Assembly (NCBI RefSeq): GCF_900106585.1
Contig: NZ_FNWH01000006.1
Coordinates: 868,001-932,000 of the forward strand
Source of the DNA: Acidaminococcus timonensis
GTDB taxonomy: Bacteria; Bacillota; Negativicutes; Acidaminococcales; Acidaminococcaceae
Direction: 5' to 3'
DNA length: 64,000 nucleotides
Part shown: positions 1-18,423 of the stretch, one piece after another
Layout: every line of letters starts with the position of its first letter
Numbering within the stretch: the stretch's first letter is position 1
Notes under the pieces: model-generated
Seen by the model: the letters and a program-made list of their open reading frames with translations, nothing else
Database searches by the model: none
Told to the model about the DNA's origin: nothing
Position numbers and translations under genes: made by a program

Positions 1-320
1 ATGCCGCTACCTCCTTGCTGTTTTTTCCTTTGCTGATCGACCCCAGGTCCATTATACCGGAAATCCTCTTTTTGGGAACCCCCCACCGTCATCATCTGCA
101 ATTTCTCCGCAACTTCGTGATTCACTGCAGGATCCCCGGTGTAGCGATGGGCTGTTTCCACGGCTTCCTCCACCTGCTGATCCGTGGCCGCCACCAGTTC
201 CTCATACCCCACCAGGGCCGCAAAGGGGGCAAACTGGGCAGCCCTTTGCTTCCTGGGCATCCGGGGCCGGGGCAGCGTCTTCGGATGGGGCAGCCCCACC
301 AAGTCTTTTTCCCCGTTCAC
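1..320 (-). CDS. YolD-like protein, partial (runs off left edge)
   Basis: The frame opens with GTG at 320, which overlaps the TGA of the upstream polymerase gene by two bases, so the two are translationally coupled. Near residue 24 it has RKQRAAQFAPFAALVGYEE, the hallmark of the short YolD-like proteins that accompany UmuC-type polymerases in Firmicutes. These are usually 80-120 aa. Here 106 codons are open without a stop up to the window edge, so the end is not seen. The last bases read as AGGAGG followed by AT, which may be the RBS and start of a next gene. A TATAAT lies about 50 bases before the edge. Role inferred: accessory to SOS translesion synthesis. Confidence 0.75.
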   Translation of the reverse strand, partial: MNGEKDLVGLPHPKTLPRPRMPRKQRAAQFAPFAALVGYEELVAATDQQVEEAVETAHRYTGDPAVNHEVAEKLQMMTVGGSQKEDFRYNGPGVDQQRKKQQGGSG

Positions 321-1798
321 GCCCGATGCCCCCCTACCTGTCCGTTCCGTTCCCGGGTCATGGCCCCCTGGAGCAAGTTGCTGCCCCGCAGCAGGGCGTT
401 CTTCCCGTACCGGGCCTGGATGTCCAGGATGGTCTGCTGCAGGCTGTCCTCCTGGTCCTCCTTTCCCTGCTCCGCCATCCCGGCGAACAGGTCCGCCTCC
501 CGGCCCCGGACTGGCACGGCTTCCGGCGGCACCACATGTTCGGCGGTCAGGGTCACCTTCCGCACCAGCAGCAGGGGATTGCACACCCGGTCGAACAGGT
601 CCAGGGCCGCCTGCCGGATGGCCGTTCCGGAGGCAGTATACCCGCCCGGCAGGTTCAGAGACCCATGGCCATGGACGGGGACCGGCCGTCCGTAATGGTC
701 CTGCACCACCCGGCCCCGGTACGACCGCCGACGCCAGGGGTCCTCCAGGTTGCTCCGGTCATACCCCAGGGTCAGCACCAGCTGGTCCGTCACCCGGCTT
801 TTCTTCACCAGGTCCAGGGCCAAAAGGTCCGCCATCTCCCACACAATGAGCCGGGCCTTGTCCGCCGGATAGGGATGCTGGAGCACCTGCCCGGACCCCA
901 GGCTGCTGCTCCGGGGGCGGTAGGTCTTGATATCCTGCAGGGTGCAGGGTTCCCAGCCCCAGGCATGGTCGATGAGCAGCTCCGCATTCACCCCGAACAG
1001 ATGGTACAGCAGGTCCGGGTCCTGGAGGGACATGCGGGCCACAGCCCCCAGGGTATACATGCCATAGCGCTGGAGCTTGCGGGTGATCCCCGGCCCGATC
1101 CGCCAGAAATCCGTCAGGGGGCAGTGGTCCCACAGGGTCTCCCGGTACCTCTGCTCGGTCAGAGAGGCGATCCGCACCCCATCCCCGTCGGGCTCCATAT
1201 GCTTGGCCACAATGTCCATGGCCACCTTGCACAGGTACAAATTGGTGCCGATGCCGGCAGTAGCCGTGATGCCCGTCTCCTTCAACACCGCCCGGATCAT
1301 CTCCCGGATCAGCTGGCGGGCGCTGCAGCCATAGCTTTTCAGGTAGGGTGTCAGGTCCAGCAGCACTTCGTCGATGGAATACACGTGGATGTCCTCCGGG
1401 GCCATGTACCGCAGGTAGGTGCGGTACACCCGGGCGCTGGTTTCCATATAGAGCCGCATCCGGGGCACGGCGGTGATGTAGTCCAGCTCCAGGGAAGGCT
1501 GCCGGTTCAATCGAGAAGCCAGGAAGGAACGGCCGGTGAACCGGTTACGGGGGCACAGGCTGCGGCGCATGGCGTTCAGCTCCTCCACCTGGCGGATCAC
1601 CTGGAACAGCCGGGGCCGGCCGGGGATTCCCCAGGCCTTCAGGGCCGGGGAAACGGCCAGACAGATGGTCTTATCGGTACGGCTCTTATCGGCCACCACC
1701 AGACAGGCATCCAGCGGGTCCAGGCCCCGTTCCACACATTCCACCGACGCATAGAAAGATTTCAGGTCGATGGCTCCATAGATCCGCTGCTGTTCCAT
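317..1798 (-). CDS. Y-family DNA polymerase, UmuC/DinB-like (translesion)
   Basis: 493 aa. The N-terminal palm motif AIDLKSFYASVE holds the first catalytic Asp (residue 11), and YSIDEVLLDL (SIDE at 141-144) holds the second acidic pair. A helix-hairpin-helix region follows (FWRIGPGITRKLQRYGM), then a little-finger domain. The long C-terminus and pairing with a YolD-like gene fit the UmuC-like group of Firmicutes and phages rather than classical DinB (about 350 aa). The start chosen is the ATG at 1798, preceded by GGGAGGGACAGG; the frame extends about 20 codons upstream without an SD. Family role: error-prone bypass of DNA lesions. No LexA box was recognised upstream. Confidence 0.9.
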   Translation of the reverse strand: MEQQRIYGAIDLKSFYASVECVERGLDPLDACLVVADKSRTDKTICLAVSPALKAWGIPGRPRLFQVIRQVEELNAMRRSLCPRNRFTGRSFLASRLNRQPSLELDYITAVPRMRLYMETSARVYRTYLRYMAPEDIHVYSIDEVLLDLTPYLKSYGCSARQLIREMIRAVLKETGITATAGIGTNLYLCKVAMDIVAKHMEPDGDGVRIASLTEQRYRETLWDHCPLTDFWRIGPGITRKLQRYGMYTLGAVARMSLQDPDLLYHLFGVNAELLIDHAWGWEPCTLQDIKTYRPRSSSLGSGQVLQHPYPADKARLIVWEMADLLALDLVKKSRVTDQLVLTLGYDRSNLEDPWRRRSYRGRVVQDHYGRPVPVHGHGSLNLPGGYTASGTAIRQAALDLFDRVCNPLLLVRKVTLTAEHVVPPEAVPVRGREADLFAGMAEQGKEDQEDSLQQTILDIQARYGKNALLRGSNLLQGAMTRERNGQVGGHRA

Positions 1799-1925
1799 TC
1801 CCTGTCCCTCCCGTTCTGTTCGTTTTATGAACATTTGTTTGTTTATAGTATAGCACAAAAGGGAGGCTTCGAAAAGCCCCCCTTGTCAAGATTCCATCTG
1901 ATCCAGATCCGCCCCTGTCCAGACA

Positions 1926-2771
1926 TCAGGCCTGGATGATCTTCATCCCCTGCACCACCTGGTCCGGAGTCAGGCTGCCCAGAGCATCCAGCAGGTGCAC
2001 GTGGAAGGTCCCCGGTCCCGGATTTCCCCGGGCTGCCACTTCCCCGGCCAGGCCCATATAGACCGTGCCCAGAACAGCGGCCGCAAAGGGCTCTCCGCTG
2101 CTGTGCCAGGTTCCTGCCAGGGCCCCTACCATACAGCCGGTGCCTGTGAGCCGGCCCAGCAGGGGCGTCCCGTTGGCCACCCCGAGGGTCCGCCTGCCGT
2201 CGGTGACCAGATCCGTGGCCCCGGTAATCAGGAGCACCGTATCGTGCTCCCGGGCGTAGGCGGCAAAAGGTTCCGCCGCCCCGGCCAGATCCGTACCCCT
2301 GATGGCATCCGCCGACCCGGCGTCCACTCCGTGGGCGTGGCTGGGCAGGCCGCACAGGGCCCGGATTTCCGAGCTGTTCCCCTTGATGATCTGAGGCCGG
2401 TTGGCTGCAATAAACGCTTTGGCATATTCCAGCCGCAGGGTGCTGCAGGCTGCCCCCACCGCATCCAGCAGGATGGGCAGTCCCATCGCATGGGCCTTCG
2501 CCCCGGCGATTGCCATGGCCTGCAGCCGTTCTTCGTTGATGTTCCCCAAATTCACCACCAGGGAATCCGCCGCCCCTGTGATCTCCTCCACCTCTTTCGG
2601 GTGAGAAGCCATGGTGGGGCTGGCCCCCACTGCCAGGATGGCATTGGCACTGTCATTCATGGTGATGGCGTGGGTCATGCAGTGGATCAGCGGTTCATTT
2701 GCCCGCACCCTGGACAGGATGGCCGTAAACACCCTGGCCAGCTTGTCTTCTGCTTCCGTGGTCATATACAT
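1926..2771 (-). CDS. thiM: Hydroxyethylthiazole kinase ThiM
   Basis: 281 aa, normal family length. It phosphorylates 4-methyl-5-(2-hydroxyethyl)thiazole in thiamine salvage. Visible signatures are PLIHCMTHAITMNDSANA near the N-terminus, GASPTM, the NLG segment, and the C-terminal GRLTGTGCMVGAL with the catalytic Cys and anion hole of the ribokinase-like fold. The start at 2771 overlaps the end of the upstream thiW-like gene by 77 bases. Residues before the conserved block are needed to match the family, so the overlap looks genuine. It is co-transcribed with the transporter gene behind a TPP-like leader. Confidence 0.93.
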   Translation of the reverse strand: MYMTTEAEDKLARVFTAILSRVRANEPLIHCMTHAITMNDSANAILAVGASPTMASHPKEVEEITGAADSLVVNLGNINEERLQAMAIAGAKAHAMGLPILLDAVGAACSTLRLEYAKAFIAANRPQIIKGNSSEIRALCGLPSHAHGVDAGSADAIRGTDLAGAAEPFAAYAREHDTVLLITGATDLVTDGRRTLGVANGTPLLGRLTGTGCMVGALAGTWHSSGEPFAAAVLGTVYMGLAGEVAARGNPGPGTFHVHLLDALGSLTPDQVVQGMKIIQA

Positions 2772-3282
2772 TCACTCCCAATTTTCTCTGGAATTCCAGC
2801 AGCGTCCCGTTTTTGGAGAGCACGGTCAGCAGGCAGAAGGCGATGGACCCGCCGATCAGGGTGCCGGCGATGAAGCTGGGCACATAGAACATCCAGGACA
2901 GACCGGTGCGGCCCATGAGGATTTCCATCACCGGATAGGAAACCATGGCCCCGATGATGCCGGTACCGATCACTTCACCCAGGCAGGCGGCAATGATTTT
3001 GCCCCCGCTGGCCCGGTAGAACAGGCCGGAAAGGACGGCCCCGAACACAGCCCCGGTCAGGGCCAGGGGCGGAATGCCCATAACGGTCATCCGGATGATG
3101 CCGATCAGCGTGGCACAAAGCAGGGAATACCAGGGTCCCAGCATCACCGAACAGGTGATGTTGATCAGATGGGCCATGGGACACATGCCTTCGATCCGCA
3201 GGATGGGCGAAATGACCACACCCAGGCCGATCATCATGGCCAGGAACACCAGACGCAGGACTTTTTGCTGTTTGCTTTCCAT
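2695..3282 (-). CDS. thiW: ThiW-like thiamine-precursor transporter, ECF S-component
   Basis: About 195 aa with five or six hydrophobic segments. The start PILRIEGMCPMAHLIN and the segments after it resemble the ThiW family, S-components thought to import the thiazole precursor for an energy-coupling factor transporter. Position directly before thiM and behind a TPP-riboswitch-like leader supports this. No ECF A/T genes are present, so a shared module elsewhere is implied. The ATG at 3282 follows AAAGGAG at a rather long spacing. The C-terminal end overlaps thiM by 77 bases. Confidence 0.82.
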   Translation of the reverse strand: MESKQQKVLRLVFLAMMIGLGVVISPILRIEGMCPMAHLINITCSVMLGPWYSLLCATLIGIIRMTVMGIPPLALTGAVFGAVLSGLFYRASGGKIIAACLGEVIGTGIIGAMVSYPVMEILMGRTGLSWMFYVPSFIAGTLIGGSIAFCLLTVLSKNGTLLEFQRKLGVNVYDHGSRRQAGQGVYGHPVQGAGK

Positions 3283-3360
3283 AATAAAAATTCCACTCCT
3301 TTTTGGACCGGTAGCACCAGCCCCTTCAGAGTGGCAATGAACATTGTGTGCGTACCCACC

Positions 3361-3445
3361 ACAGCTGAAAAAGCTGGCAGAAGCCAGTTCTGACGGTCGG
3401 TACTGTGGTACCCTCTCAACCCGGCACACGGGCTCCCTCGCTGAA
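3361..3445 (-). promoter_or_regulatory. TPP-riboswitch-like leader of thiW-thiM
   Basis: Reading on the minus strand: GGGAGCCCG...CGGGTTGAGAGGG, then ACCGTCAGAACTGG, CTTCT, GCCAGC. This parallels the TPP aptamer order GGG(G/A)GC - P3 hairpin - CTGAGA - GAACCTG - CTGG...TGCCAGC. The final conserved GTAGGGA is not seen; TTTTTCAGC takes its place. It lies in the transcribed leader between the promoter at about 3486-3514 and the thiW start. Thiamine gene context supports a TPP element, but it is divergent or decayed. Confidence 0.5.
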
Positions 3446-3485
3446 AATGAATACCGATCCAGGGCGCTCCCCCTCGATCGTTCCT

Positions 3486-3514
3486 ATTGTAACAAAAAAA
3501 GCAGAAGGAAGCAA
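3486..3514 (-). promoter_or_regulatory. Promoter of thiW-thiM
   Basis: Minus-strand TTGCTT (3514-3509), 17-bp spacer, TACAAT (3491-3486). The -35 box lies inside the terminator hairpin of the upstream operon, so the two units are packed back to back. Confidence 0.55.
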
Positions 3515-3528
3515 GTGTCCTTCTGCTT
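3494..3528 (-). terminator. Terminator of the Shango-like/MATE operon
   Basis: Minus-strand hairpin AGCAGAAGGA / TCCTTCTGCT with a short loop, followed by a T-run. It lies downstream of the MATE gene after two copies of an interspersed repeat. Confidence 0.75.
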
Positions 3529-3538
3529 CGGCTGTGAA

Positions 3539-3590
3539 CCCATCCACCGTCCATCCGGACGGCCCCCCTTCCCTTTCAGGAAAGGACAAC
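3539..3590. repeat. Interspersed CCCATCCACCGTCC repeat, copy 1
   Basis: Begins CCCATCCACCGTCCATCCGG and ends AAGGACAAC. It is a near-identical neighbour of copy 2 (3616-3667) and is related to 61490-61580. It contains the small palindrome GTCCATCCGGAC. Confidence 0.85.
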
Positions 3591-3615
3591 AAGGGTCGTA
3601 CGGTCGGTGCAGGAA

Positions 3616-3667
3616 CCCATCCACCGTCCATCCGGACGGTCCCCCTTCCCTTTCAGGGAAGGACAAC
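3616..3667. repeat. Interspersed CCCATCCACCGTCC repeat, copy 2
   Basis: Same unit as copy 1, 25 bases further on, ending three bases from the stop codon of the MATE gene. Its end carries CCCTTTCAGGG, a second short inverted repeat. Confidence 0.85.
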
Positions 3668-3669
3668 TG

Positions 3670-5031
3670 TCATTCCATGCTCCTGACGATGTATTTCCGG
3701 CAATGGACGTACACCACGGCCAGCACCACCGTGGCAACGAACCAGCTCAGGGGATAGGCCAGCAGCAGCACCAGGTAGTCCCGGTATTTGGCGAACACGG
3801 TAAAGATGTACACCAGCCGCACGCCGCAGATGCCCAGGATGGCCACAATGGCCGGAGGCAGCGCATACCCGTACCCCCGCAGGGCCCCGGACAGGATATC
3901 CAGCATCCCGTTCAGGTACAGGGTGGTGGCAACCAGATGGATCCGCTCCACCCCCAGGCGGATGACCTCCGGATCGGGATTGAACAGGCTGATGATCTGC
4001 CGCCCGAACAGCACAATGGGCGTGGTGATGCACAAAAGAAACAGTCCCTCCACCCAGAAGGCCGCTTTGGTGGTGCGCAGGCACCGGTCCAGTTTCCGGG
4101 CCCCGTAGTTCTGTCCCACAAAGGTGGTGGTGGCCTGGCTGAACCCGTTCACAAAGCAGTAGATGTTGAACTCGATGATCACCCCGGCCGCAGCAGCAGC
4201 CATCACAGCGGTTCCCAGGCTGTTGAGGGAAGACTGGATCACCACGTTGCTCACGGCGAACACCATGCCCTGGATGCCGGCCGGAAGCCCGATCTTGATG
4301 ATGTTCCGGAACTCCACCCGGCTGAACCGCATATGGTGCCGCTGGAGCCGGACGGGCTGGGGCGTGCGGCACAGCAGCACAAACAGGAACAGGGAGTTCA
4401 CCGCAAAGCTCAGCACCGTGGCACTGACCACCCCGGTCAGTCCCAGATCCAGCACCGTCACCGAAAGCAGGTCCAGGGTGATGTTCAGGATATTGGCCGC
4501 CACCAGGCTGTAGAGAGGGGTTTTCCCGTCTCCGCAGCTGCGGAAGATGGCCGCCTCGAAGTTGTACAGGGTCAGGAAGGGCATGCCCAGCAGGAAGATC
4601 CGCAGGTAGGTGGCCGCCAGGTCGTGGACCTCCTCCGGTACATCCAGGATCTTCAGGGCCGGATGGGCGATCAGCTGCCCCACGATGCTGAGCAGCACCC
4701 CCAGCCCGATGGCCATAAAGATGGCGGTCTGCACCGTCTCTTCCACCTTGTCCTGCTTTTTGGCCCCCAGATACTGGGCAATTACCACATTGGCCCCCAG
4801 GGAGATCCCGATCAGCAGCGTCACCAAAAGGCCGATGACGGGCATGTTGTTGCCCACCGCAGCCATGGCGTCCTTCCCCACAAAATGGCCCAGGATGAAC
4901 ACATCCATGCTGTTGAACAGCTGTTCGAACAGCCCCATGAGCCCGATGGGCATGGCAAAAAGAAACAGTTTGTCTGCAATGGAGCCGTGGAGCATGTCCA
5001 GGCCGTGCCGTCTGCTCTGAACTTCCGTCAT
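3670..5031 (-). CDS. MATE-family multidrug/Na+ antiporter
   Basis: 453 aa, about 12 membrane segments in two halves, the usual MATE length. Early residues PIGLMGLFEQLFNSMDVFILG and the repeat half starting IIKIGLPAGIQGMVFAVSNV match the two MatE domains. Predicted role: export of cationic or toxic compounds across the inner membrane, driven by Na+ or H+. Its ATG overlaps the helicase stop by four bases (ATGA), so it is translationally coupled to the three-gene Shango-like operon. That placement is unusual, since MATE is not a known part of that system. Confidence 0.92.
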   Translation of the reverse strand: MTEVQSRRHGLDMLHGSIADKLFLFAMPIGLMGLFEQLFNSMDVFILGHFVGKDAMAAVGNNMPVIGLLVTLLIGISLGANVVIAQYLGAKKQDKVEETVQTAIFMAIGLGVLLSIVGQLIAHPALKILDVPEEVHDLAATYLRIFLLGMPFLTLYNFEAAIFRSCGDGKTPLYSLVAANILNITLDLLSVTVLDLGLTGVVSATVLSFAVNSLFLFVLLCRTPQPVRLQRHHMRFSRVEFRNIIKIGLPAGIQGMVFAVSNVVIQSSLNSLGTAVMAAAAAGVIIEFNIYCFVNGFSQATTTFVGQNYGARKLDRCLRTTKAAFWVEGLFLLCITTPIVLFGRQIISLFNPDPEVIRLGVERIHLVATTLYLNGMLDILSGALRGYGYALPPAIVAILGICGVRLVYIFTVFAKYRDYLVLLLAYPLSWFVATVVLAVVYVHCRKYIVRSME

Positions 5032-7262
5032 CCTTCATTCCCCCATTCCCGGATCCGCTTCCGCACGTCATCCAGGTTCAAGACCCCCAGAGCGAACCCT
5101 TTTCTGATCAGCTGCTCCGGCAGGTATTCATCGTATTTGTCGAACACCGGCACCTCCTGGGGATACACCAGGTCCAGAGGATCGATGTCCTTTTCGATTT
5201 CTTCCTTCACCACCCGGTAAAAGGTCTTTTCATCCGCGTCCATGGTGAACTGCATAAAGAAGGGCCGGAAGGGATCCAGCTTCTTCAGTCCCAGCCGCCG
5301 GGCGCATTTCAGGTTCAGGAACCGTTCCATGGCCAAAAAGCCGTAGGTCCCCAGCCAGGGCAGGAGGCACCACATGTTGCCTCCCAGCTGGATCAGGGGC
5401 TTTTCCGCTGCCCCCGAGGCCACCGCCGTGTGCCGGGCCTGCTGCAGCCGGGCCACTGCATTCTTCATCAGATAGGGATAGCTCCGGTCCTCCTGCAGCA
5501 CCCTACGCATGCGCTCCAGCACCCGGGTATGCAGATCCCCGGGGCATTCCCCGAAATAAGCCGGGACTTTGCCCTTCACCATTTCGCAGTAGATCACATG
5601 CCGTTTCCGGTCCACCTCCAGCACCCGCCACACATGGCCGGCAATGGCGATCTTCTCCCCGGGAGGAGGAGGTGCCACCACGGTGCCCAGTTCTTCCGAA
5701 TCGCAGCGCACCGTGTATTCCTCGTTTTCCTGGAACACCCCGTAGAATTTGAAGGAGCTGATCACCCGCTCCCCCGCAAGGCCCACCATCAGGCCCCCCT
5801 GCTCCGTCCGTTCAATATGATCCTCCGCGATCAGGTACTGGAGCAGCACCTTGTAGTCTTCCTGGCTGATCCGATGGAAATAGCTGAGCCGCAACACCCG
5901 GTCTGCCAGGGCCGCCGGAGACAGTTCCCCGTTGCTGGCCAGCACGCTCATGGTCTGGTGGTACAACAGGCTGTAGGGCAGCCGGTCCAGCCGGGGCGGT
6001 TCCACCCATTTTTCCTCCAGGTACAGCTGGATCAGGGCGATTCCCTGGAGCAGTTTCCAGGGGATGGTGGCAGGCAGCAGCGCCCGGATCTCCGGCTCAT
6101 CCTCCCGGATCACGAACCACATCTCCGGCGGCAGATCCCGGCGCCCGGTCCGCCCCATGCGCTGGAGGAAGGAAGATACGGTCCAGGGCGCATCGATCTG
6201 GAAGGCCCTTTCCAGCCGTCCGATGTCGATGCCCAGTTCCAGGGTGGAAGTGGTCACCGTAGTCAGGTTCCTGCTTTCGTCCTTCATCAGTTCTTCCGCC
6301 GTTTCCCGCACCGCCGCCGACAGATTACCGTGGTGGATCAGGAACCGATCCGGTTCATGGCGCAGCTCGCAGTACTGGCGCAGGCTGGTAGTCACCCCTT
6401 CACATTCTTCTCGGGAATTGACGAACACCAGGCATTTCTTGCCCCGGGTATGCTCGAAGATGTAGCCCAGTCCCGGGTCCGCCTGCACCGGTGCCGTGTC
6501 CGTCTTCTGATCCAGGGCCGGAAGCCCCCTGATATCCGTCCGGTCCTCCCCGGCCTGGGCATCCTTCACGTAAAAGTGCTCCATGGAAAGCCGCCATTTG
6601 GCACCGGGGGCCTTCACCTGGGGGATCAGGGTCTTCCGGCCCGTACCAAGAGACAGGAACTCCCCCACCCGCTGGGGATCCCCCAGTGTGGCCGACAGGC
6701 CGATCCGCCGGGGATTCACCCCTGCCAGCCGGGAAAGCCGCTGGATCAGGCACAGGGTCTGGCCGCCCCGGTCCCCCCGCAGCAAAGAATGGACCTCGTC
6801 GATGACCACGAACCGCAGATCCCCGAACAGTTTGGGAATGGCCATGTGCTTGTGCAGCAGCAGGGCCTCCAGGCTTTCCGGGGTAATCTGCAGGATACCC
6901 GACGGATGGCGCATGAGCTTGGCCTTGTGGGACTGGGACACATCCCCGTGCCAGTGCCACACAGGGATGTGCCCTTCCTGGCACAGAGGCTGCAGCCGCT
7001 GGAACTGGTCGTTGATCAGGGCCTTCAGGGGACCGATGTAAATGCAGCCCACGCTTTTGGGCGGGTCCTGGGCAAACTGGCTCAGGATGGGAAAGAACGC
7101 TGCCTCCGTCTTGCCCGAAGCCGTGGAGGCCGTCAAAAGAAGGTTCTGGTCCGTATGGAGGATCACATCCCCCGCAGCCACCTGGATGGGCCGCAGTTCC
7201 GACCAGCCCTGCCGGTAAATGAAATCCTGCACAAAAGGTGCATACTGGTCAAAGATACTCAT
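5028..7262 (-). CDS. sngC: Lhr-like DEAD/DEAH helicase, SngC-like (Shango)
   Basis: 744 aa superfamily 2 helicase. Motif I TASTASGKT is at 44-52, motif II DEVH at 155-158, motif III in GLSATLGDP, and motif VI QRMGRTGR in the second RecA domain. A long C-terminal region with a winged-helix/Lhr-core look follows (VAPPPPGEKIAIAGHVWRV). It is third in the order TerB protein, BrxD-like ATPase, helicase, which matches the three-gene Shango anti-phage system (SngA, SngB, SngC). An ATG at 7262 is chosen over the GTG one codon earlier; SD is AAAGGAAG. The gap to the ATPase gene is 18 bases and the stop overlaps the MATE gene. Confidence 0.8.
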   Translation of the reverse strand: MSIFDQYAPFVQDFIYRQGWSELRPIQVAAGDVILHTDQNLLLTASTASGKTEAAFFPILSQFAQDPPKSVGCIYIGPLKALINDQFQRLQPLCQEGHIPVWHWHGDVSQSHKAKLMRHPSGILQITPESLEALLLHKHMAIPKLFGDLRFVVIDEVHSLLRGDRGGQTLCLIQRLSRLAGVNPRRIGLSATLGDPQRVGEFLSLGTGRKTLIPQVKAPGAKWRLSMEHFYVKDAQAGEDRTDIRGLPALDQKTDTAPVQADPGLGYIFEHTRGKKCLVFVNSREECEGVTTSLRQYCELRHEPDRFLIHHGNLSAAVRETAEELMKDESRNLTTVTTSTLELGIDIGRLERAFQIDAPWTVSSFLQRMGRTGRRDLPPEMWFVIREDEPEIRALLPATIPWKLLQGIALIQLYLEEKWVEPPRLDRLPYSLLYHQTMSVLASNGELSPAALADRVLRLSYFHRISQEDYKVLLQYLIAEDHIERTEQGGLMVGLAGERVISSFKFYGVFQENEEYTVRCDSEELGTVVAPPPPGEKIAIAGHVWRVLEVDRKRHVIYCEMVKGKVPAYFGECPGDLHTRVLERMRRVLQEDRSYPYLMKNAVARLQQARHTAVASGAAEKPLIQLGGNMWCLLPWLGTYGFLAMERFLNLKCARRLGLKKLDPFRPFFMQFTMDADEKTFYRVVKEEIEKDIDPLDLVYPQEVPVFDKYDEYLPEQLIRKGFALGVLNLDDVRKRIREWGNEG

Positions 7263-7280
7263 CACACGCTTCCTTTGGAA

Positions 7281-8600
7281 CTACACCGTGAACTCCGCAA
7301 ATTCAGGAGCCGTCTCCTGGCTTTCCACCTCATTCTTCGCATACTGGAACCCCTCGGAATGGAGCAGCTCCGCCACCTTCAGTTCCGGATGCTGGTACAG
7401 GATGTCCAGCACCTCGATGAAATCCCGGATCACCTCCCGGGGCGTGATGTGGGAATCGGCCCCGATGCGGCTGAATTCGATCTGGATGAAATCCCCCAGG
7501 TCCTGTTCCGTCACATGGGGTTCGTATCCGTACAGCACCCCGTGGATCTGGGCCAGTTTTTCGATCAGGATCAGCATTTCGTCACCGGTCAGCGGCTGCA
7601 GCCGGATCACCGGAGCCAGCAGGTCTCTGTGTTCCCCGCCGAAATGACCTTCCGCCAGCCGGGACCGCAGGGCTTCGTAGCTGTACACCCCCCGCCGGGG
7701 ATCTTCCATACACTGGGGCGTGCCCCCCATGATGATGCCCAGGTAACGGGCCTTGCCCTGAAGGGTATCGTTGTACATGGTCAGGATCTTTTCATAGTTA
7801 TACTGCCGGGTGATGGCGTGAGGGATCTTGTAGATGTTCACCAGCTCGTCGATGCACACCAGCAGCCCGGCATACCCGGCCTGTTTCAGGAACAGGGCAA
7901 AGATCTTCAGGTATTCATACCAGTCCTCGTCGGAGATGATGATATTCACTCCCAGTTCCTGCCGGGCTTCCGTCTTGGTGTGGTACTCTCCCCGGAACCA
8001 CTTGATCACCCTGGCCTTGGTGGATTCATCCCCCTGGCGATAGCTCTGGTAATACAGGGTCAGCAGCCGGGCAAAGTCAAACCCGTGGACCATTTCGTTC
8101 AGAGCATCGATGACCTGGCCGATTTTCTGTTCCACCAGCCCATCCAGCCGGCCGTCAGTCAGAGAAAGACCCTTCTCCTCCATGACCTGCTGCTGGACCT
8201 GGCTGATCCACCGGTCCAGGATCAGGGGCAGGGCGCCCCCTTCCGGCCGGGTCTTCGTGGCCATATTCCGCACCAGCTCCCGGTAGGTGGCCAGGCCCTG
8301 GCCCTTTGTTCCCTGCAGCCGCCGCTCCGGGGACAGATCCCCGTCCACCACCACAAAATTCCGTTCCATCACATAATTGCGCAGGGTCTGGAGCAGGAAG
8401 CTTTTGCCGCTGCCGTACCGGCCCACGATGAACCGGAAGGAAGCCCCGCCGTCGGCGATGACTTCCACGTCGTGGAGCAGGGCATCGATTTCATTTTTCC
8501 GTCCCACCGTAATATAGGGCAGCCCGATCCGGGGCACCACCCCGCCCTTCAGGGAACTGATCAGGGTCCGGGCAATCCGTTTGGGTATTTTCACTGTCAT
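7281..8600 (-). CDS. sngB: BrxD-like P-loop ATPase (DUF2791), SngB-like (Shango)
   Basis: 439 aa. Walker A GRYGSGKS at residues 60-67 and Walker B LLVCIDEL near 246-253. The start IPKRIARTLISSLKGGVVPRIG fits the BREX ATP-binding BrxD / DUF2791 family, AAA+-like ATPases. Its ATG overlaps the stop of the TerB gene by four bases. No other BREX gene (PglX, PglZ, BrxC) is present, which argues against a full BREX locus and for Shango. Inferred role: sensing or motor subunit working with the helicase in phage defence. Confidence 0.82.
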   Translation of the reverse strand: MTVKIPKRIARTLISSLKGGVVPRIGLPYITVGRKNEIDALLHDVEVIADGGASFRFIVGRYGSGKSFLLQTLRNYVMERNFVVVDGDLSPERRLQGTKGQGLATYRELVRNMATKTRPEGGALPLILDRWISQVQQQVMEEKGLSLTDGRLDGLVEQKIGQVIDALNEMVHGFDFARLLTLYYQSYRQGDESTKARVIKWFRGEYHTKTEARQELGVNIIISDEDWYEYLKIFALFLKQAGYAGLLVCIDELVNIYKIPHAITRQYNYEKILTMYNDTLQGKARYLGIIMGGTPQCMEDPRRGVYSYEALRSRLAEGHFGGEHRDLLAPVIRLQPLTGDEMLILIEKLAQIHGVLYGYEPHVTEQDLGDFIQIEFSRIGADSHITPREVIRDFIEVLDILYQHPELKVAELLHSEGFQYAKNEVESQETAPEFAEFTV

Positions 8601-10189
8601 GGTTCCAGTTGTCCTTTCAAATCCTCTTTATAATCTTCGATCACCGAGGGCGGGTCTCCGGCTTCCAGCACCGTATCCCCGAACTCCCCGTAGCATTTTT
8701 CATTGATCCCGTCCACCAGGAGCGAAGGCATCAGCCCCCTGGCCGCCACCCAGGAGGTATCCCCCCCTGTAAGCAGATCCCGCAGGTAGTGGAGTTCATC
8801 CTCCGTCAGGTTCCAGGGATTCTTCCCGGCAGCCGGAGCCGAGGGAGCAGGTGCCGTTTCCGGGGCGGCAGGTGCCCAGCCGGGGACGTCGGGCGCCCCT
8901 TCCAGAGGTTCCGTTTCCAGGGGTTCTGTTTTCCCCTGTCCCGGAGACGCGGTCCGGGGTTCCCCCGGCAGGCTTTCCGCGGGCAGGGCCTCCTCCCGCC
9001 GTTCCTCCTCGGTCATCAGCCGCTCCCGGGTCACCGCCGCTTCCCGGCGGATCCTGTCCAGGGCTTCCGGATGGAACACCACCCGGCGGGCTTCCCGTTC
9101 CTTCCGTTCCCGGTTGTCGGCAGCCACCACATCGCCCACCAGTTTCGTCAGCCAGACATAGGAAAAGGGCTGCTGCACCGCCGGTGCCACGTGGAGGGCC
9201 TCCCGCAGGAGACCGTCGAGGCTCTTCATGAGCTTGCCCAGCTTCTTCAGGCATTTGGCCTCATAATTGAACCGGCGCAGCGTCCAGTTCCCTTCATCGT
9301 CCTTGTAGATGCAAAGGGGCGTCTCCTCCACCGTGAACTGCCGCCTGTCCGGCAGTTTCAGGAATACGGCGTTGGCAAACAGATCCAGCCAGTCGTAGGT
9401 GGGATGGCCCAGGAATTCGTCCAGGAAGGTCTTTTTCTTCCGGTGCCTGGCATAATAGACCTGCAGCCCCCGATAGATCCGAGAAAACAGATGGACCGTC
9501 CGTTCCGGGTCCACCTTGTATAGCCTGGACCGGGTCAGCCGGTAGGTGGAAAAGAGATCCAGGGCATCGAAAATGGCCTGATCATCGGCCTGCTGCCAGT
9601 CCTGCAGGGTCAGCAGGGCCCTGTCCTGTTCCATCCGTTTCGACCTGGGCAGCAGTCCGGGATCCAGCTGGTAATACAGCACATAATCCCGCAGCCACTG
9701 GTGCAGGTACGGATCGATCCGGGCATCCAGGAGCCGGTATTCCTGGTGAAAGGCACAAAGTTTCCGGTAGCCCTCCATGGGATCCTTCACGCCGATCTGG
9801 TTCAGCAGTTCATAGATATAGAGAAAGGCATAGGTCAGGGAGGTCCGCTCCAGGTCATGGTGGCGCAGCCGGGTGCGCCAGCCGAAATACCCCCGCAGCT
9901 CCGGGTCCGTAAGCACCCGGTAGGTGGGATAGTAATGGAGCACCGGAAGGTCGTAGACGGCATCGTCCTCGTAGTCCTCCAGGGCTCTGCCCTGGCGCAC
10001 AAACAGCTGGGCCGTGGTTTCGTAGGACGAAGTCTCATCCTGCTGCATGGCCCGGAGCCGGGCAAGGGGTTCCGGCAGAGGCTGAGTCCGGGGCCGGTCC
10101 TTGGGCCTGATGGGCTCCGCCGCATACAGCTTCTGCAGCAGCTGGAAGGTCCGGGCCTTTTCCTCCGGGGTCTTTTTCTCGAATTCCAC
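8597..10189 (-). CDS. sngA: TerB-N/TerB-C domain protein, SngA-like (Shango)
   Basis: 530 aa, soluble, no signal peptide. The N-terminal half has YFGWRTRLRHHDLERTSLTY and FLYIYELLNQIGV, typical of the TerB-N domain. A charged Glu/Pro/Ala-rich linker follows (about 400-450). The end, EFGDTVLEAGD...VIEDYKEDL, is typical of TerB-C. It is the first gene of the operon. The GTG start at 10189 is preceded by GGGAGGGG; the nearby ATG at 10196 is out of frame. TerB domains occur in tellurite-resistance and stress modules, and with a DUF2791 ATPase and helicase this is the Shango order. Phage defence is by analogy, not shown here. Confidence 0.8.
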   Translation of the reverse strand: MEFEKKTPEEKARTFQLLQKLYAAEPIRPKDRPRTQPLPEPLARLRAMQQDETSSYETTAQLFVRQGRALEDYEDDAVYDLPVLHYYPTYRVLTDPELRGYFGWRTRLRHHDLERTSLTYAFLYIYELLNQIGVKDPMEGYRKLCAFHQEYRLLDARIDPYLHQWLRDYVLYYQLDPGLLPRSKRMEQDRALLTLQDWQQADDQAIFDALDLFSTYRLTRSRLYKVDPERTVHLFSRIYRGLQVYYARHRKKKTFLDEFLGHPTYDWLDLFANAVFLKLPDRRQFTVEETPLCIYKDDEGNWTLRRFNYEAKCLKKLGKLMKSLDGLLREALHVAPAVQQPFSYVWLTKLVGDVVAADNRERKEREARRVVFHPEALDRIRREAAVTRERLMTEEERREEALPAESLPGEPRTASPGQGKTEPLETEPLEGAPDVPGWAPAAPETAPAPSAPAAGKNPWNLTEDELHYLRDLLTGGDTSWVAARGLMPSLLVDGINEKCYGEFGDTVLEAGDPPSVIEDYKEDLKGQLEP

Positions 10190-10256
10190 CGTCCATCCCC
10201 TCCCTTCTCAACAGACTGACCAGAAGCCAAAGGCAAACATTTTTTCACCATTCTCC

Positions 10257-10262
10257 ATTATA
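10257..10262 (-). promoter_or_regulatory. Probable -10 box of the Shango-like operon
   Basis: Minus-strand TATAAT about 70 bases upstream of the TerB gene. No good -35 box was seen at 16-18 bp. Confidence 0.4.
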
Positions 10263-10330
10263 ACAAGGAAGACAAGAAAAGGAAAGAGAAGCCCGGCAAA
10301 CTGGTTTTCCCACCGGGCCCCGCCATATGA

Positions 10331-10336
10331 TATACT
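10331..10336 (+). promoter_or_regulatory. Probable -10 box of the broken barrel gene
   Basis: TATACT preceded by TGA, in the divergent region between the Shango-like operon and the plus-strand barrel gene. The -35 is weak. Confidence 0.35.
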
Positions 10337-10372
10337 GAAAAAAGAAAACCAGTAGAAAGCAGGTGATGGCCC

Positions 10373-11506
10373 ATGATGACCCCTTTCTGGTTCTTTTTGC
10401 TCTGCTGCCTGGCCCTGCCCGGTATGCGGGGCGAAGGGGCCCCGGTGGACCCTTCCCAGGCCGATCCTCCGGAAAAACAGGAACAGCGGAACACCCCCTG
10501 GCTGGAACTCCACGGGGACTATCGGTATCTCTACGGCAAGGGACGGTTTGCCGCCCGGACCCCCGCCAACCTGAAAAAAAGCCGCTGGCCCCGGACGGAC
10601 CAGGATGTATTCCTGCTCCAGCGGCGGCTGCGGCTGTTCCCGGTGATCCACACCAGCCGGGACACCCAGCTGAAATTCATGATCGAAGACAAACGGAACG
10701 ACAAGGACCACACCCAGGACCACCATCCCACCCTGGCCCGGGCCTATCTCCAGCACGAAAATGGCCATACCAAATGAGAGCTGGGCCGGTTCAACCTGTA
10801 TCTCATGGACGGGAACGTGATCGACAAACGGGTGGACGGGATCCGTACCAGCTTCGGAAAGAAAACGGACCCGGCCGGACGGCTCACCCTGTTTGCCGGC
10901 CAGACCACCGGGAGCGACAACCTCCACCGGAAAACCGGCTGGTACCTCCAGGGCGAAAAACAGCTGGGGAAGCTGAACCTCCGGTCCGCCTTCCTGGATT
11001 TCCGGACCCGCCAGTCCCTGCCTGCCAGCCTGTCGGCCCTCCAGCGACTGGGACTGGAGCCGGGCTCCAGCGGCACCGGGTTCGACCGGCAGCAGATCTG
11101 GACCACCCGGCTGGAATACCAGCCCCGGGACCGTTGGCTGTTCGACCTGGAACTGCTGGGGTCCAAAGGCTCCCACGGGCAGGATGGATACCAGGAACGA
11201 AAAGCCGGTTTTGTGGCTGCCGTAACCTACGGGGAACTGGACGAACGGAAAGGCGGTACCTGGGAAACCTGGCTCCGGTACTACCACCAGCCCCAGTCCA
11301 GCATCCTCTACCACACCATGGACGGAGATACGGGCTTCTTCCAGCGCCAGGGGTTCCGGGGCTGGGGCGCCCGGCTGGACTATGTGGTGATTCCTGGTCT
11401 GGTCTGGGCGGTGGAAGGCTTCCGGCTCCAGAACAGAAAAACAGGACCCTTCACCCGGGATTTCCGGGAGTGGGTCCTGGGGACCAGCGTAACGGCGTAT
11501 TTTTAA
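10373..11506 (+). pseudogene. Outer-membrane beta-barrel (porin-like) gene broken by in-frame TGA
   Basis: The ATG at 10373 follows AGGTGATGGCCC and encodes a signal peptide (FWFFLLCCLALPG). The frame meets TGA at 10775-10777 and then continues in the same frame to TAA at 11504-11506. Both parts have alternating amphipathic strands rich in Arg, Tyr, Trp and Gly and end in a terminal aromatic (VTAYF), as in outer-membrane barrels. Restoring the TGA to TGG would give one protein of 377 aa (HTK-W-ELGRF). No SECIS-like hairpin is obvious after the TGA. Most simply this is a nonsense-mutated gene; a sequencing error or readthrough cannot be excluded. It converges on, and overlaps by four bases, the seven-gene operon. 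Confidence 0.7.
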
Positions 11507-12018
11507 CCAAACCCTTCTTTGAGCCCCGCATAGTTCTCATAGCTGTCCCGCAGCATATGGATCACGTGGGCAGGGTCTTTCTGCAGCCAGTCCTGCCGCT
11601 TTTCCGGCATGATGGTGAACCAGGCCGGAGCTCTCAGGAGATTGTTCAGGGATCTGTACAACTGCTGTTCGGGGATTTTCTTCAGTTTCCCGGTCTCTGG
11701 CTGTACCTCATAGCCCTGGTCCCTGCCCTCTCCTTCGGCATTGACCAGGATTTCCAGCTGCCCGTTCCAGTCCATATCCAGCACGGCGATGTTCACCAGA
11801 CCGTCCCATTGGGGGACCCGGTCCCACTGGTCCCGGTTGGCCAGAAGGATCTGGAGCTGGTGCCGGAGCGCACCGGGGGCCAGGGGCCGGGGTTCAGAGA
11901 CACCGCCGGGCCACTCCTGTCTGTGGGGAAGGTCCCGTTCACAGGCCAGAGCCGGAGCCGCTCCCAACAACAGAACGAGCAGCCCCCAGGCGGCACGTTT
12001 TTTAATGGATCCATCCAT
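11503..12018 (-). CDS. Secreted hypothetical protein, last gene of seven-gene operon
   Basis: 171 aa with an N-terminal signal peptide (WGLLVLLLGAAPALA). The mature part has VLDMDWNGQLEILVN, resembling the Asp-rich calcium loops of FG-GAP/EF-hand-like repeats, and a related loop occurs in the protein at 12861-13856. Family not recognised. It is 27 bases downstream of the beta-helix gene and is predicted to act in the periplasm or at the surface. Confidence 0.7.
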   Translation of the reverse strand: MDGSIKKRAAWGLLVLLLGAAPALACERDLPHRQEWPGGVSEPRPLAPGALRHQLQILLANRDQWDRVPQWDGLVNIAVLDMDWNGQLEILVNAEGEGRDQGYEVQPETGKLKKIPEQQLYRSLNNLLRAPAWFTIMPEKRQDWLQKDPAHVIHMLRDSYENYAGLKEGFG

Positions 12019-12045
12019 TGTTCCCCCTCCCTTCTTCGGCTCTCT

Positions 12046-12849
12046 TTACCTGTCAACCATCTGGCTCACGGTTCCTCCCGTCAGGTCCATATCATTGATC
12101 CTTCCCTGGACATTCTTGAAGGTACAGTCGATCAGTTCCAACTGGGACTGGGCCACGGCGAAAAGGGGGAGATTGGTGCTGGTGTCTTTGAACAGGGTCT
12201 GGATGATCTTCATATCCCGACACTCTATGGCATTGATCAGGCCATAGGTGCAGCTGCGGATCACACTGTCCCGGAGGGTAACGCTTTCACAGCCCAGGGC
12301 TTCATACCCATAGGTCCCGCACCCGTACAGGTCCAGATTTTCCAGCCTTGCGTCCTGCACCAGATCCAGTTTCAGTACGGCTCCGCTGCAGCGGCCAGCC
12401 TGCAGGGAATGGCCGACCCGGAGATGGGCCAGCCGGAAGTTCTGACAGTTCCGGAAATGCAGCACCGGAGTATAGGGATCCTCTGTTACGATTTCTGCCG
12501 TGATCGTCTCCGTATCCTGGCCCCGGATGGTGAGATCCTGGAATCCGGCCAGCTCCAGGTTCTCATAGGCCATATACAGGCCTGGAGGGCTGAGGGGATT
12601 CCATGGGAATCTGTGGATCACCTGGTCCGCAGCGGTGCTGGCCAGCCAGGTGGACAGGTTGTAGCGGCCCGGTGCCAGGATGATTTCCGTATGGTCATCC
12701 AGGGCCTCCATCATTTCCTGTACATTGTGGACCAGGACGGTTTTCCGGGGAGCAGCAAAACCCCCGGCCGCCAACCCCAGAACCAGGACCATACACAGCA
12801 GCAGAGCCCGTATCAGGTCCGTCCATAATTTACCGATCCGTTTCATCAA
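12046..12849 (-). CDS. Secreted right-handed beta-helix protein
   Basis: 267 aa. A positively charged start (KRIGKLWTDLIRALLLCMVL) and hydrophobic stretch ending GGFAAPRK act as signal peptide. The body shows the periodic strands of a parallel beta-helix (NFRLAHLRVG, ARLENLDLYGCG, ESVTLRDSVIRSC). Such folds often bind or cleave polysaccharide, but no catalytic residues can be assigned. It sits between two other secreted-protein genes with gaps of 11 and 27 bases. Confidence 0.75.
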   Translation of the reverse strand: MMKRIGKLWTDLIRALLLCMVLVLGLAAGGFAAPRKTVLVHNVQEMMEALDDHTEIILAPGRYNLSTWLASTAADQVIHRFPWNPLSPPGLYMAYENLELAGFQDLTIRGQDTETITAEIVTEDPYTPVLHFRNCQNFRLAHLRVGHSLQAGRCSGAVLKLDLVQDARLENLDLYGCGTYGYEALGCESVTLRDSVIRSCTYGLINAIECRDMKIIQTLFKDTSTNLPLFAVAQSQLELIDCTFKNVQGRINDMDLTGGTVSQMVDR

Positions 12850-12860
12850 CTGTCACCTCC

Positions 12861-13856
12861 CTATTCCTCCCGCACCACCAGGCTGCCGTCTTTTCCGCTG
12901 ATCTGGAGGATCTTCCGATGATACCCCTTCCGGTCGTAATAGGACAGGCCGGTGGCCCGGGCCGTCCCTTCCAGATTTATGGGGTAGTTGTACCGGGTAC
13001 CCGGTTCCAGGTTCCCCAATGGTTCATCCTTTTCCACCTGCCAGGTCACCTGACCGCTGTCACTGACCTCCGCCACCTGGAGGGTGAGCAGGTGCACATC
13101 CTCCAATCTCTCTCTGGGAGTCACCGCCAGCATGGGTTCGCCAAACTCGCTGTCCTGGGTCAGGGACAGTTCCACACTCCCTTTGCCCCAACGGGCCAGG
13201 GGCTGCCAGGACTTTTTTTCCACCTTGCCCATCAGGTTTGTTTGCAGTTGCTGGAACTGCCCCGGTGTCATGGCCTGTTTCTCCGACAGGGCTCTGTCCG
13301 GAATGCCAAGGGTGTTCCAGTACACTTCCTCTTTTTCCCTGACAGGATCCCAGTTGGTGAAATAACAGTTTTCGCACACCAGATTTCCGTCCCTGTCCAG
13401 ATGGTACTCTCCCAGTATGGCAAGTCCGGTGCCCCCGGACCCCTGGTTCAGGAACCGTCCCTTTCCCAGGGGATACCAGGCGTTACGGTACAGGCCGCTG
13501 AACACCCGGTGGAGCCGGCCGTCCCGGATGGTGAACAGATTGGTGATCCGGTCGTCCTGGCCCGTCAGCAGTTCCGGCTCCCCGTCCCCGTTGCAGTCCA
13601 ACAGCTGATACTTCACCTGTTCCAGCCCCTGGGCCGGGGACAGTTCCCGGATCCCTTCCCAGACTGCCACCAGGTCCTCCCGATCCTCTCCATAAGCGTC
13701 AGGGTCTCTGCCTCCCTGGATCATATCATACAGGGTGTCCAGTTCCCGGCCATAGATTCCTTCTCCGCCGGAAGCCCCGGCCAGGACCGGCAGGCCGGTG
13801 AGAAAAGCCATGAGGCACAGGCAGACCAGCGGCCTCCAGGCATCCTTTCCTTTCAT
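12861..13856 (-). CDS. Secreted hypothetical protein with calcium-loop-like motif
   Basis: 331 aa. Signal peptide to about residue 29 (LMAFLTGLPVLAGASG). LLDCNGDGEPELLTG near residue 88 matches a DxNxDG calcium-binding loop; the 171-aa neighbour has a weaker version. The C-terminal part is beta-rich. No enzyme family recognised. It is part of the tight operon (gaps 12 and 11 bases), so likely an envelope function shared with the YdjGHI-like module. Confidence 0.72.
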   Translation of the reverse strand: MKGKDAWRPLVCLCLMAFLTGLPVLAGASGGEGIYGRELDTLYDMIQGGRDPDAYGEDREDLVAVWEGIRELSPAQGLEQVKYQLLDCNGDGEPELLTGQDDRITNLFTIRDGRLHRVFSGLYRNAWYPLGKGRFLNQGSGGTGLAILGEYHLDRDGNLVCENCYFTNWDPVREKEEVYWNTLGIPDRALSEKQAMTPGQFQQLQTNLMGKVEKKSWQPLARWGKGSVELSLTQDSEFGEPMLAVTPRERLEDVHLLTLQVAEVSDSGQVTWQVEKDEPLGNLEPGTRYNYPINLEGTARATGLSYYDRKGYHRKILQISGKDGSLVVREE

Positions 13857-13868
13857 GGCTCCTCCTTT

Positions 13869-14630
13869 TCAGAACTTTCCGCCGCCGCCCCCATGATCCT
13901 CATCGGTACTGTCGGCCTTGGAGCTTTCACGGCTCTTCTTCGGCTTGCGATGGACCGTCATGTACAGATAGTTATCTGAATTTTCTTCCAGCTGGAAGCT
14001 GTCCCGGTCCAGATAGACCCCGGCTTCCAGGGCTGGCATCACATTGTTCATCTGCCCGATGAGCACCCGGCGCACCAGGAACCCGATGCCCAGAGACACC
14101 GCAGCGGCAATGGCCAGGGCCAGAGGATTGAAAGCATTGGCAGGATCGTAGGGCTTCCCTTCTTTCTGGTAGTAGGCCAACAATTCATCCGCCCCTTTGG
14201 CATACTGGCCGAAGGCTTTCGGATAGTTGTTCTTTTTCAGGGCCGGCAGGAATTTTCCGCTGAGGGCCTTGATACCGGCTTTGTCGGTGATCATTTTCCG
14301 CATGCCGTTGTCGGTGGAAATGTACCAGTCCCGATCCTTCATGGACAGGAGCAGCACCATATTCCCCTTGAGCTTGCTGTCTTTGATCTTGTCCAGCATC
14401 CCATTGGCGAACTCTCCGGTTTTCACGTTTCCGGTGTTTTTTACCGTGACCACTGCCAGACGTACCTGGTATTTCTGGTTCACCTGTTCCAGGGACTGCT
14501 GGAGGGCTTTCTCTTCCTGGGGCCGCAGGAGATCTGCCTGATCCAGCACCAGGGCAGAGGCTGCCGATCCGGGAACCGCCATGCCCACCAGAAGCACCAG
14601 GAGTGCCAGGATGCGCAGTAACTTCTTCAT
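13869..14630 (-). CDS. TPM-domain membrane protein, YdjH-like
   Basis: 253 aa. Signal peptide (ILALLVLLVGMAVPGSA), then a TPM domain (VLDQADLLRPQEEKALQQSL ... LLLSMKDRDWYISTD), one membrane segment (ALAIAAAVSLGIGFLVRRV) and a polar tail ending GGGGGKF. Size and layout fit YdjH of B. subtilis, which works with YdjG and YdjI as the membrane anchor for PspA. The YdjG-like and YdjI-like genes are directly upstream here, with no PspA gene nearby. The TPM domain faces the outside. Confidence 0.8.
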   Translation of the reverse strand: MKKLLRILALLVLLVGMAVPGSAASALVLDQADLLRPQEEKALQQSLEQVNQKYQVRLAVVTVKNTGNVKTGEFANGMLDKIKDSKLKGNMVLLLSMKDRDWYISTDNGMRKMITDKAGIKALSGKFLPALKKNNYPKAFGQYAKGADELLAYYQKEGKPYDPANAFNPLALAIAAAVSLGIGFLVRRVLIGQMNNVMPALEAGVYLDRDSFQLEENSDNYLYMTVHRKPKKSRESSKADSTDEDHGGGGGKF

Positions 14631-14640
14631 GATGACCTCC

Positions 14641-15756
14641 TTACGTCAAGAACATCTTTGCCACAAAATACAGCGCCGGTGTAAGGATGGCCGCCACAGC
14701 CCCCATAACCATCAGGGATTTCTGGTTGTCATAGGGCAGTGTCCCCACCATCTTCCCGGTCTGTCCGTTCATCATAAAGGTGTAGGGTTTGTCCTGATAC
14801 CGGGTGGTCAGGATCCACACCGGAGCCAGGGCATAGGCCACCTGGTCTTCATCCTTCCGGACCACGCTGTCCTTGAGGATGGTCCGGTCATAGCCCCTGG
14901 CCTTGACGGTTTCTTCCAGCACCCCTACGGCGGACCGTTCCACCCGTTCATCAGCCCGGGGCACAGAAGCTTCCGCATCCACATCGTATTTGTCCGCCAG
15001 GAAACCGGTGAGATAAGCCGGGCTGAAGGGCACCATCTGAGAATAATCGAAAGGTTCGATGCTTTCCATATAGGTATCGTCCATTTTGCTGGACCCGTCC
15101 ACCGGAATCTTGTGGAAACTCATCCGGCCACTGCGGATGCACTGGAACACCCGGGTTTCCGTAATGATCTCATCGCTGGTTTCCATTACATTGTCGTCTT
15201 CCCCCTGGAAGTCGGCACTGGCATGGATTTTGGAATCGAAGAGCCAGAAGGGCACGTACATGGGCTGGATGTCCTGGACCCGGTTGTTGGCCGTAAAGGC
15301 CGCCGGCAGCAGGCGCTTGCCCTTGTAGAATTCCTTCAGGGCCGCCACCGCATCGTCCTTGGTCTTGGTGAAGGGGATCACGTAATCCGGCTTCAGCATG
15401 CCGCTGAAACGGTTGGGCATCATGGTGGGATTCCCGCAGTAGCAGCATTCCGTGGCCAGGGTGTTTTCGTCACAGACGATTTCCGCACCGCAGGCGGAAC
15501 AGGTGAAGGCTTTCAGGACGGAAGCTTCTTCCGTGCTCCATTCCTTGCCGGCCATCTCCGTATTCCAGCGTTCTTCCTTTGCTTCCTGGGCGGCTGCCGC
15601 CCGTTCCTGCTGCCGGGCAAAGAGAGCTTCCATCTGGGCCACGTCCAGTTTGGTATCGCAGTAGGGGCAGACCACCTGGCTTGCCCCTGGCTGGAATTCC
15701 AGGGGCCCGCCGCAGTTGGGACACTTGTAGGCAACAGAGGTATCGGTCATTTTCAC
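14641..15756 (-). CDS. Zinc-ribbon membrane protein, YdjG-like
   Basis: 371 aa. The N-terminal zinc ribbon CPNCGG...CPYC is followed by a second (CSACG...CCYCG), a long conserved region, and a C-terminal membrane segment (VMGAVAAILTPALYFVAKM). This is the architecture of YdjG-type proteins, which are often misnamed as helicase-like because of the zinc ribbons. Start ATG at 15756. Gaps to neighbours are 12 and 10 bases. Predicted partner of the YdjI-like SPFH and YdjH-like TPM proteins at the inner membrane. Confidence 0.8.
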   Translation of the reverse strand: MKMTDTSVAYKCPNCGGPLEFQPGASQVVCPYCDTKLDVAQMEALFARQQERAAAAQEAKEERWNTEMAGKEWSTEEASVLKAFTCSACGAEIVCDENTLATECCYCGNPTMMPNRFSGMLKPDYVIPFTKTKDDAVAALKEFYKGKRLLPAAFTANNRVQDIQPMYVPFWLFDSKIHASADFQGEDDNVMETSDEIITETRVFQCIRSGRMSFHKIPVDGSSKMDDTYMESIEPFDYSQMVPFSPAYLTGFLADKYDVDAEASVPRADERVERSAVGVLEETVKARGYDRTILKDSVVRKDEDQVAYALAPVWILTTRYQDKPYTFMMNGQTGKMVGTLPYDNQKSLMVMGAVAAILTPALYFVAKMFLT

Positions 15757-15768
15757 TCACCTCCTGTT

Positions 15769-17211: not shown

Positions 17212-17257
17212 AGTATACCTTCCTTTCTTCTAGGTCATATCTTGCCGTCTTGCTGAT

Positions 17258-18286: not shown

Positions 18287-18332
18287 AGTATGCTCCTTTC
18301 TTCAGATATCCGTTCGTTCTCTTTCTGCTTTT

Positions 18333-18376: not shown

Positions 18377-18385
18377 GTTTTGGTA

Positions 18386-18422: not shown

Positions 18423-18423
18423 T

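Follow-up and report, generated by a model that had tools for sequence, protein, structure and literature searches.

A Shango defence operon followed by a probable passenger MATE exporter gene in Acidaminococcus

Results

Organization of the locus

The window, a 64,000-nucleotide stretch of DNA from the 2.30-Mb genome G000, which belongs to the same genus (Acidaminococcus) as genomes G004 and G005, carries four consecutive minus-strand genes that span positions 10189 to 3670 when its open reading frames are read. These genes and their adjoining features are:

10190..10272, minus strand: sequence upstream of sngA that accompanies the four genes in sister species (DNA similarity)
8597..10189, minus strand: SngA, 530 aa, GTG start; TerB_N and TerB_C domains; PADLOC SngA, 237 bits
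7281..8600, minus strand: SngB, 439 aa; BrxC/BrxD-type P-loop ATPase; PADLOC SngB, 634 bits; Pfam BrxC_BrxD, 578 bits
5028..7265, minus strand: SngC, 745 aa, GTG start; SF2 (Lhr/BrxHI-like) helicase; PADLOC SngC, 912 bits; Pfam DEAD and Helicase_C
3670..5031, minus strand: predicted MATE-family exporter, 453 aa; Pfam MatE; TIGR00797; probable passenger gene
3498..3529, minus strand: terminator-like site beyond MATE, a hairpin and then a run of T (consensus match, not proof)

The sequence-only reading of this DNA had recognized a TerB-N/TerB-C protein, a BrxD-like ATPase and an Lhr-like helicase in the order SngA-SngB-SngC. Its coordinates are exact, and both Pfam and PADLOC agree with the assignments. 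The Pfam domains of all four proteins score far above their cut-offs, with TerB_N at residues 46–234 and TerB_C at residues 357–525 of SngA. Inspection by eye finds a Walker A motif (GRYGSGKS) and a Walker B motif (CIDEL) in SngB, and the motifs ASGKT, DEVH, SAT and QRMGRTGR in SngC. The genes had also been described as joined by 4-base or near-zero overlaps. This holds for the SngA/SngB junction and for the SngC/MATE junction, each of which is a 4-base ATGA overlap, but SngB and SngC are separated by a 15-base gap.

Upstream of sngA, the DNA similarity to the sister species extends as far as window position 10272 in G004 and 10263 in both G001 and G005, where it forms a separate piece in G005. 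A TATAAT sequence can be read by eye on the minus strand within this region, but it is absent from the list of the consensus promoter scan, which gave no promoter-like site on the minus strand before SngA. At the other end of the operon, the terminator-like site (3529–3498, minus strand) lies about 140 bases beyond the MATE stop codon, and the same kind of consensus scan found none at the SngC/MATE junction. A terminator shared by the four genes, as proposed from the sequence, is thus plausible, although the site is a consensus match and the scan returned 15 sites in the region against a shuffle mean of 6.1, several of them inside genes. The sngC-MATE junction in the window is too short to hold a promoter, and MATE is probably co-transcribed with sngABC. 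Short repeats behind the MATE gene (3591–3667) match sequences elsewhere in the same genome and in relatives.

SOS control of the operon is not supported, as the window scan found no LexA-like GAACNNNNGTTC site near the SngA start. There is one exact GAACNNNNGTTC site inside the MATE gene (4915–4926) and a one-mismatch site at 1829–1840, upstream of a Y-family polymerase gene. In total the window holds 31 GAACNNNNGTTC matches against a shuffle mean of 21.8, a number reached by 1 of 100 shuffles.

Several further features of the window lie outside the operon. A repeat of about 130 bases (18385–18518) has at least dozens of copies in the same genome and in G001. The genes between 33835 and 43357 have a much lower third-position GC content than most others and are perhaps a foreign insert. 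A PADLOC scan of 44 further window proteins gave one match each to DEDDh, to PDC-S48 and to DrmD (a helicase of DISARM; E 2.4e-41), and the matching proteins may be housekeeping ones. Rfam searches of positions 1–20000 returned no family, such as a TPP riboswitch, at its gathering score.

Identity of the operon

The PADLOC profiles of SngA (E 1.5e-70), SngB (E 4.5e-191) and SngC (E 6e-275) are the best matches for the three respective proteins, which answers a profile check suggested with the original reading. The genes are adjacent, on one strand and in the order A-B-C, an order also found in annotated Paenibacillus, Cetobacterium and Klebsiella plasmids. Since all three system-specific profiles match, and do so in the correct order, window 10189–5028 is, judged by its sequence, a genuine Shango operon, sngA-sngB-sngC. 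With profile E-values from 1e-70 to 1e-275 and the same order in three other species, the four-gene arrangement is not due to chance. The MATE protein matched no PADLOC family.

Distribution and inheritance of Shango

SngB is present in 8 of 9 genomes of the genus and in 10 of 59 genomes of the family. In wider samples it was found in 26 of 380 class genomes (E <= 1e-100) and in 22 of 398 phylum genomes (E <= 1e-150). Trees of SngB and SngC pair G003 with G008 and G006 with G007 and show a group of four, as does the rpoB tree; this group (G000, G001, G004 and G005) is set apart in the rpoB, SngA, SngB and SngC trees, all of which are unrooted. The agreement of the SngB and SngC trees with rpoB makes Shango in Acidaminococcus look inherited rather than freshly acquired.

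SngC relatives are encoded in 681 plasmid records (449 from Klebsiella; some may be BrxHI) and in one Klebsiella phage record (OK490421.1). On a conjugative IncFII plasmid of Klebsiella electrica (L152), Shango lies near psiA, psiB, a ParB-type gene and ssb.

Occurrence of MATE behind sngC

A MATE gene directly follows sngC in only four of the eight Shango-bearing Acidaminococcus genomes, namely G000, G001, G004 and G005. The MATE proteins of G001, G004 and G005 are 81–82% identical to that of the window, and the four form one clade; other MATE matches in the genus reach at most 47%. No MATE gene lies directly behind sngC in the other four Acidaminococcus loci or in the two Shango-bearing genomes from a second genus of Acidaminococcaceae. 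Three of those Acidaminococcus genomes have a Y-family polymerase gene as the tail neighbour of sngC, 22 (G006), 140 (G007) and 226 (G008) bases on, and in G003 an EamA transporter gene lies 16 bases behind it. A polymerase gene of this family, followed by a small ORF, is the Shango tail neighbour in loci L015, L017 and L019, and the window has both further downstream (317–1858).

The wider survey took in 73 non-redundant loci whose sequence runs on for 500 bases or more past sngC; 68 of them have 1.4 kb there and 59 have 3 kb. MATE lies within 1.4 kb behind sngC in 4 of the 73, all of them Acidaminococcus, and within 3 kb in six, the additional two being the unrelated L099 (1.5 kb) and L060 (1.9 kb). 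In 36 further Shango loci there was none; 34 of these have at least 500 bases behind sngC, four of which were taken as repeats (of L080, L081, L104 and L111), while L183 breaks off within sngC and L190 shortly after it. One set of loci covered 80 of the 352 relatives found. Loci L050–L054 and L079 were left out as duplicates, being on the same contigs as loci among L011–L019. Loci without a readable sngB were left out of the 79-locus count, and those without an sngC stop codon or with fewer than 500 bases behind it were removed as well (77 to 73). The downstream profile scan covered 40 ORFs that we chose out of 61 listed. MATE was rejected as a general component of Shango (4 of 73 loci, 0 of 36 further loci). 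Its adjacency is not unique to one strain, one of the outcomes that the sequence-only reading had asked about, but it characterizes neither Acidaminococcaceae nor Shango.

The sequence-only reading had further taken the ATGA overlap as a sign of translational coupling. The overlap is present in the window (gap of -4 bases) but is unique to it among the four species. At the matched start codon the sngC-MATE gap is 31 bases in G001, 27 in G005 and 67 in G004, and at the earliest start codon it is 4, 27 and 58 bases, respectively. Because the gaps differ among the sisters, the overlap appears to be a detail of the window species. Each Acidaminococcus genome has 4–11 MATE matches, so that, by our informal estimate, a single adjacency arising among dozens of slots would be unsurprising.

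Rearrangement around the four genes

The four-gene unit has different surroundings on either side in the window and in the sister species. In all three sisters, the DNA found to the right of window position 10336 continues leftward over about 12 kb of shared, Shango-free sequence, which places a breakpoint between window and sisters just upstream of sngA. On the other side, MATE adjoins thiW in the window, the thiM-thiW pair occupying 1926–3429. In G001, Shango-MATE is followed by an oppositely oriented GGDEF/PAS gene and then a DUF1848 gene, with thiW-thiM about 7 kb on; in G004 and G005 it is a different MATE gene, whose product is 42% identical, that adjoins thiW. The four genes stay together in every arrangement seen, which we count toward some advantage of their linkage. 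Beside the operon, the gene at 10373–11506, which has no Pfam match, contains one in-frame stop codon; it is intact in the three sister species.

The MATE protein and its origin

The MATE protein scores 199.1 bits against the Pfam MatE domain (cut-off 24.9) and 226.8 bits against TIGR00797 of NCBIfam (cut-off 147.4). Its aspartate D43 in the first transmembrane helix (TM1) is kept in all four species and aligns with D40 of the MATE exporter BH2163, which we take to be a residue that matters. With a dN/dS of 0.11–0.23, MATE is an ordinary constrained gene under purifying selection.

Among 250 class genomes, the nearest other MATE proteins (65–71% identical) come from six genomes of one genus in another Negativicutes family (f33). 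All six fall outside the set of 26 class genomes with SngB (E <= 1e-100). In five of the six loci the MATE gene precedes a co-directional ruvC-ruvA-ruvB set, with 0, 1 or 2 genes between; the sixth contig ends too early to show this, and Pfam confirmed ruvCAB on one locus and queA on another. This MATE gene family thus occurs without Shango. MATE may have been transferred to Acidaminococcus from another family, as the one class-level search of 250 genomes suggests; alternatively, MATE may have been lost in other lineages.

Passenger genes in other Shango operons

Of 79 loci, 19 have more than 240 bases between sngB and sngC, and 14 of these large gaps hold same-strand ORFs of at least 90 aa, five of which start in a 4-base overlap with sngB. 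The encoded proteins include GNAT, NUDIX, PNPOx, AAA kinase-like, GIY-YIG and ArsC proteins. Seven loci (L058, L060, L061, L062, L063, L067 and L069) share 84–93% DNA identity in sngB and sngC, but the contents of their gaps align at only 34–46%: GNAT acetyltransferases with little identity to one another occur in three, and the others hold a pyridoxamine oxidase-like gene, membrane-like proteins or a four-gene set. Part of a short sequence preceding sngC is conserved in this group. An integron-like repeated site at the sngB-sngC slot is not supported, as the candidate (up to three mismatches) occurs once each in two of six genomes and is absent from the other four. In L015 (G006), a 971-base repeat stretch (7735–8705) with 84 matches in that genome lies between sngB and sngC. 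Of the 36 loci sampled from the class and the phylum, just one has a gap above 200 bases, so the passenger habit is confined to some lineages. Given these examples, the Acidaminococcus MATE would be one passenger among several kinds.

Divergence of SngA

Among the four species, SngA is 62–78% identical, compared to 90–97% for SngB and SngC. Its dN is about 5–9 times that of its partners, and its dN/dS is 0.19–0.35 versus 0.04–0.11. The faster divergence of SngA is seen in the window and in loci L011–L019. As the ratio stays below 1, SngA evolves fast with positive selection not proven. The linker at residues 390–452 is the most variable part (27–50% identical), and the folded parts vary too. 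The AlphaFold2 model of SngA (mean pLDDT of 88.7) is confident except for a low-confidence linker at about 404–454. Foldseek gave no match to this model at E <= 0.001. The best VIA-align match (Z of 5.0) covers 73 C-terminal residues and is to a DNA-binding regulator, a level that may mean a common arrangement only. A sequence search of solved structures found no match to SngA or SngB at the limits used.

Discussion

The reading that we favour, with a probability of about 0.77, is that the locus is a genuine Shango operon of an ordinary kind behind which a MATE gene was acquired once, and that MATE is probably co-transcribed with the defence genes but works as an exporter in its own right and forms no part of the defence. 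According to this scenario, MATE would have been placed directly behind sngC in the common ancestor of the four Acidaminococcus species and since inherited, and probably co-transcribed, with sngABC, while working as a predicted exporter outside defence. In the defence proper, the SF2 helicase SngC, which belongs to the BrxHI/DruE/DpdJ clade, would act on invading DNA, SngB, a BrxC/D-type ATPase, would drive or load SngC, and SngA, the fastest-evolving subunit, might sense phage, a role suggested by its evolutionary rate. The sequence-only reading had left a choice between a hitchhiker and an added export function. The hitchhiker fits better, since close relatives of MATE are found near ruvCAB in genomes with no SngB match.

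Three observations weigh against MATE as a passenger: it has stayed beside sngC in all four species despite the differing flanks, which is compatible with selection for linkage; the window leaves no room for a promoter between the two genes; and L099 and L060 also have a MATE gene, 1.5 and 1.9 kb behind sngC. In a variant of our favoured reading, the linkage itself is selected because MATE gains expression or spread from the operon and gives an advantage independent of phage. The persistence of the linkage in four species and the unrelated same-strand genes in other Shango operons speak for this variant, but we see no sign here of the four-gene unit moving between genomes, and Shango looks inherited in the genus; we consider it possible without leaning towards it. 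A broader idea is that Shango operons are a chassis that repeatedly gains and exchanges passengers, with the Acidaminococcus MATE as a tail-end case, and so provide an expression platform for non-defence genes. We offer it tentatively and find it rather doubtful.

MATE might instead be a lineage-specific fourth component of Shango that exports a toxic or signalling product of the defence or blocks uptake, and that is translated with SngC for stoichiometry. Its position on the same strand, the 4-base overlap in the window, the lack of a terminator-like site at the junction and its place beside sngC in four of four species of the group, though the flanks differ, all speak for such a component. 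This is nevertheless unlikely, as MATE is missing from the other four Acidaminococcus loci and has no counterpart at operon distance in the remaining Shango loci surveyed, its 65–71% relatives reside in genomes without an SngB match, the overlap with sngC is not conserved and a single acquisition accounts for all four cases.

Least of all do we expect the three genes to be a BREX fragment (BrxD plus BrxHI): SngB and SngC do match BrxD and BrxHI, but at far lower PADLOC scores than their Shango profiles (159 versus 634 bits and 411 versus 912 bits, respectively), SngB reaches only 159 of the 350 bits that NCBIfam BREX_BrxD (NF033438) sets as a cut-off, and none of the 44 other window proteins, which are likely genes of at least 140 aa picked by codon composition rather than every ORF, matches a BREX profile (BrxC, PglZ, PglX or BrxL) at E <= 1e-10.

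The locus adds a well-supported Shango operon in eight of nine genomes of a gut genus, together with an argument that a tempting exporter lies outside the definition of the system. It also offers two testable handles. The divergence of SngA, much faster than that of its partners, is one on the mechanism of Shango; the tolerance of Shango operons for foreign genes inside and behind them is another.

Comparison with known systems

Several known systems resemble parts of this locus. Over nearly its full length, the MATE protein matches the sequence of the exporter BH2163 (PDB 4lz6, 5c6o; best E 1.3e-24), but unlike such exporters it is encoded in a defence operon. SngB belongs to the same Pfam family (BrxC_BrxD) as BrxD of BREX, and SngC matches the BrxHI profile; unlike in BREX, SngB falls below the BrxD equivalog cut-off and the window has no linked BREX profile match.

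Papers on Shango cite Millman et al. (2022). In the accessible parts of the literature, including PMC10250203, PMC11096173, PMC12278908 and PMC10952713, we found neither a mechanism for Shango nor a link between Shango and MATE; most subscription papers lay outside this search. In a phylogeny of helicases, SngC groups in one clade with BrxHI, DruE and DpdJ (PMC12278908). The Shango system of Pseudomonas aeruginosa PA14 is described as a TerB-like protein, an ATPase and a DEAD/DEAH helicase that give a modest, 10–100-fold reduction in plating of many but not all phages (PMC10250203). The window operon encodes the same three kinds of protein as Shango of PA14 and E. coli. It differs from them in its additional MATE gene behind sngC and in its host, a gut Negativicute.
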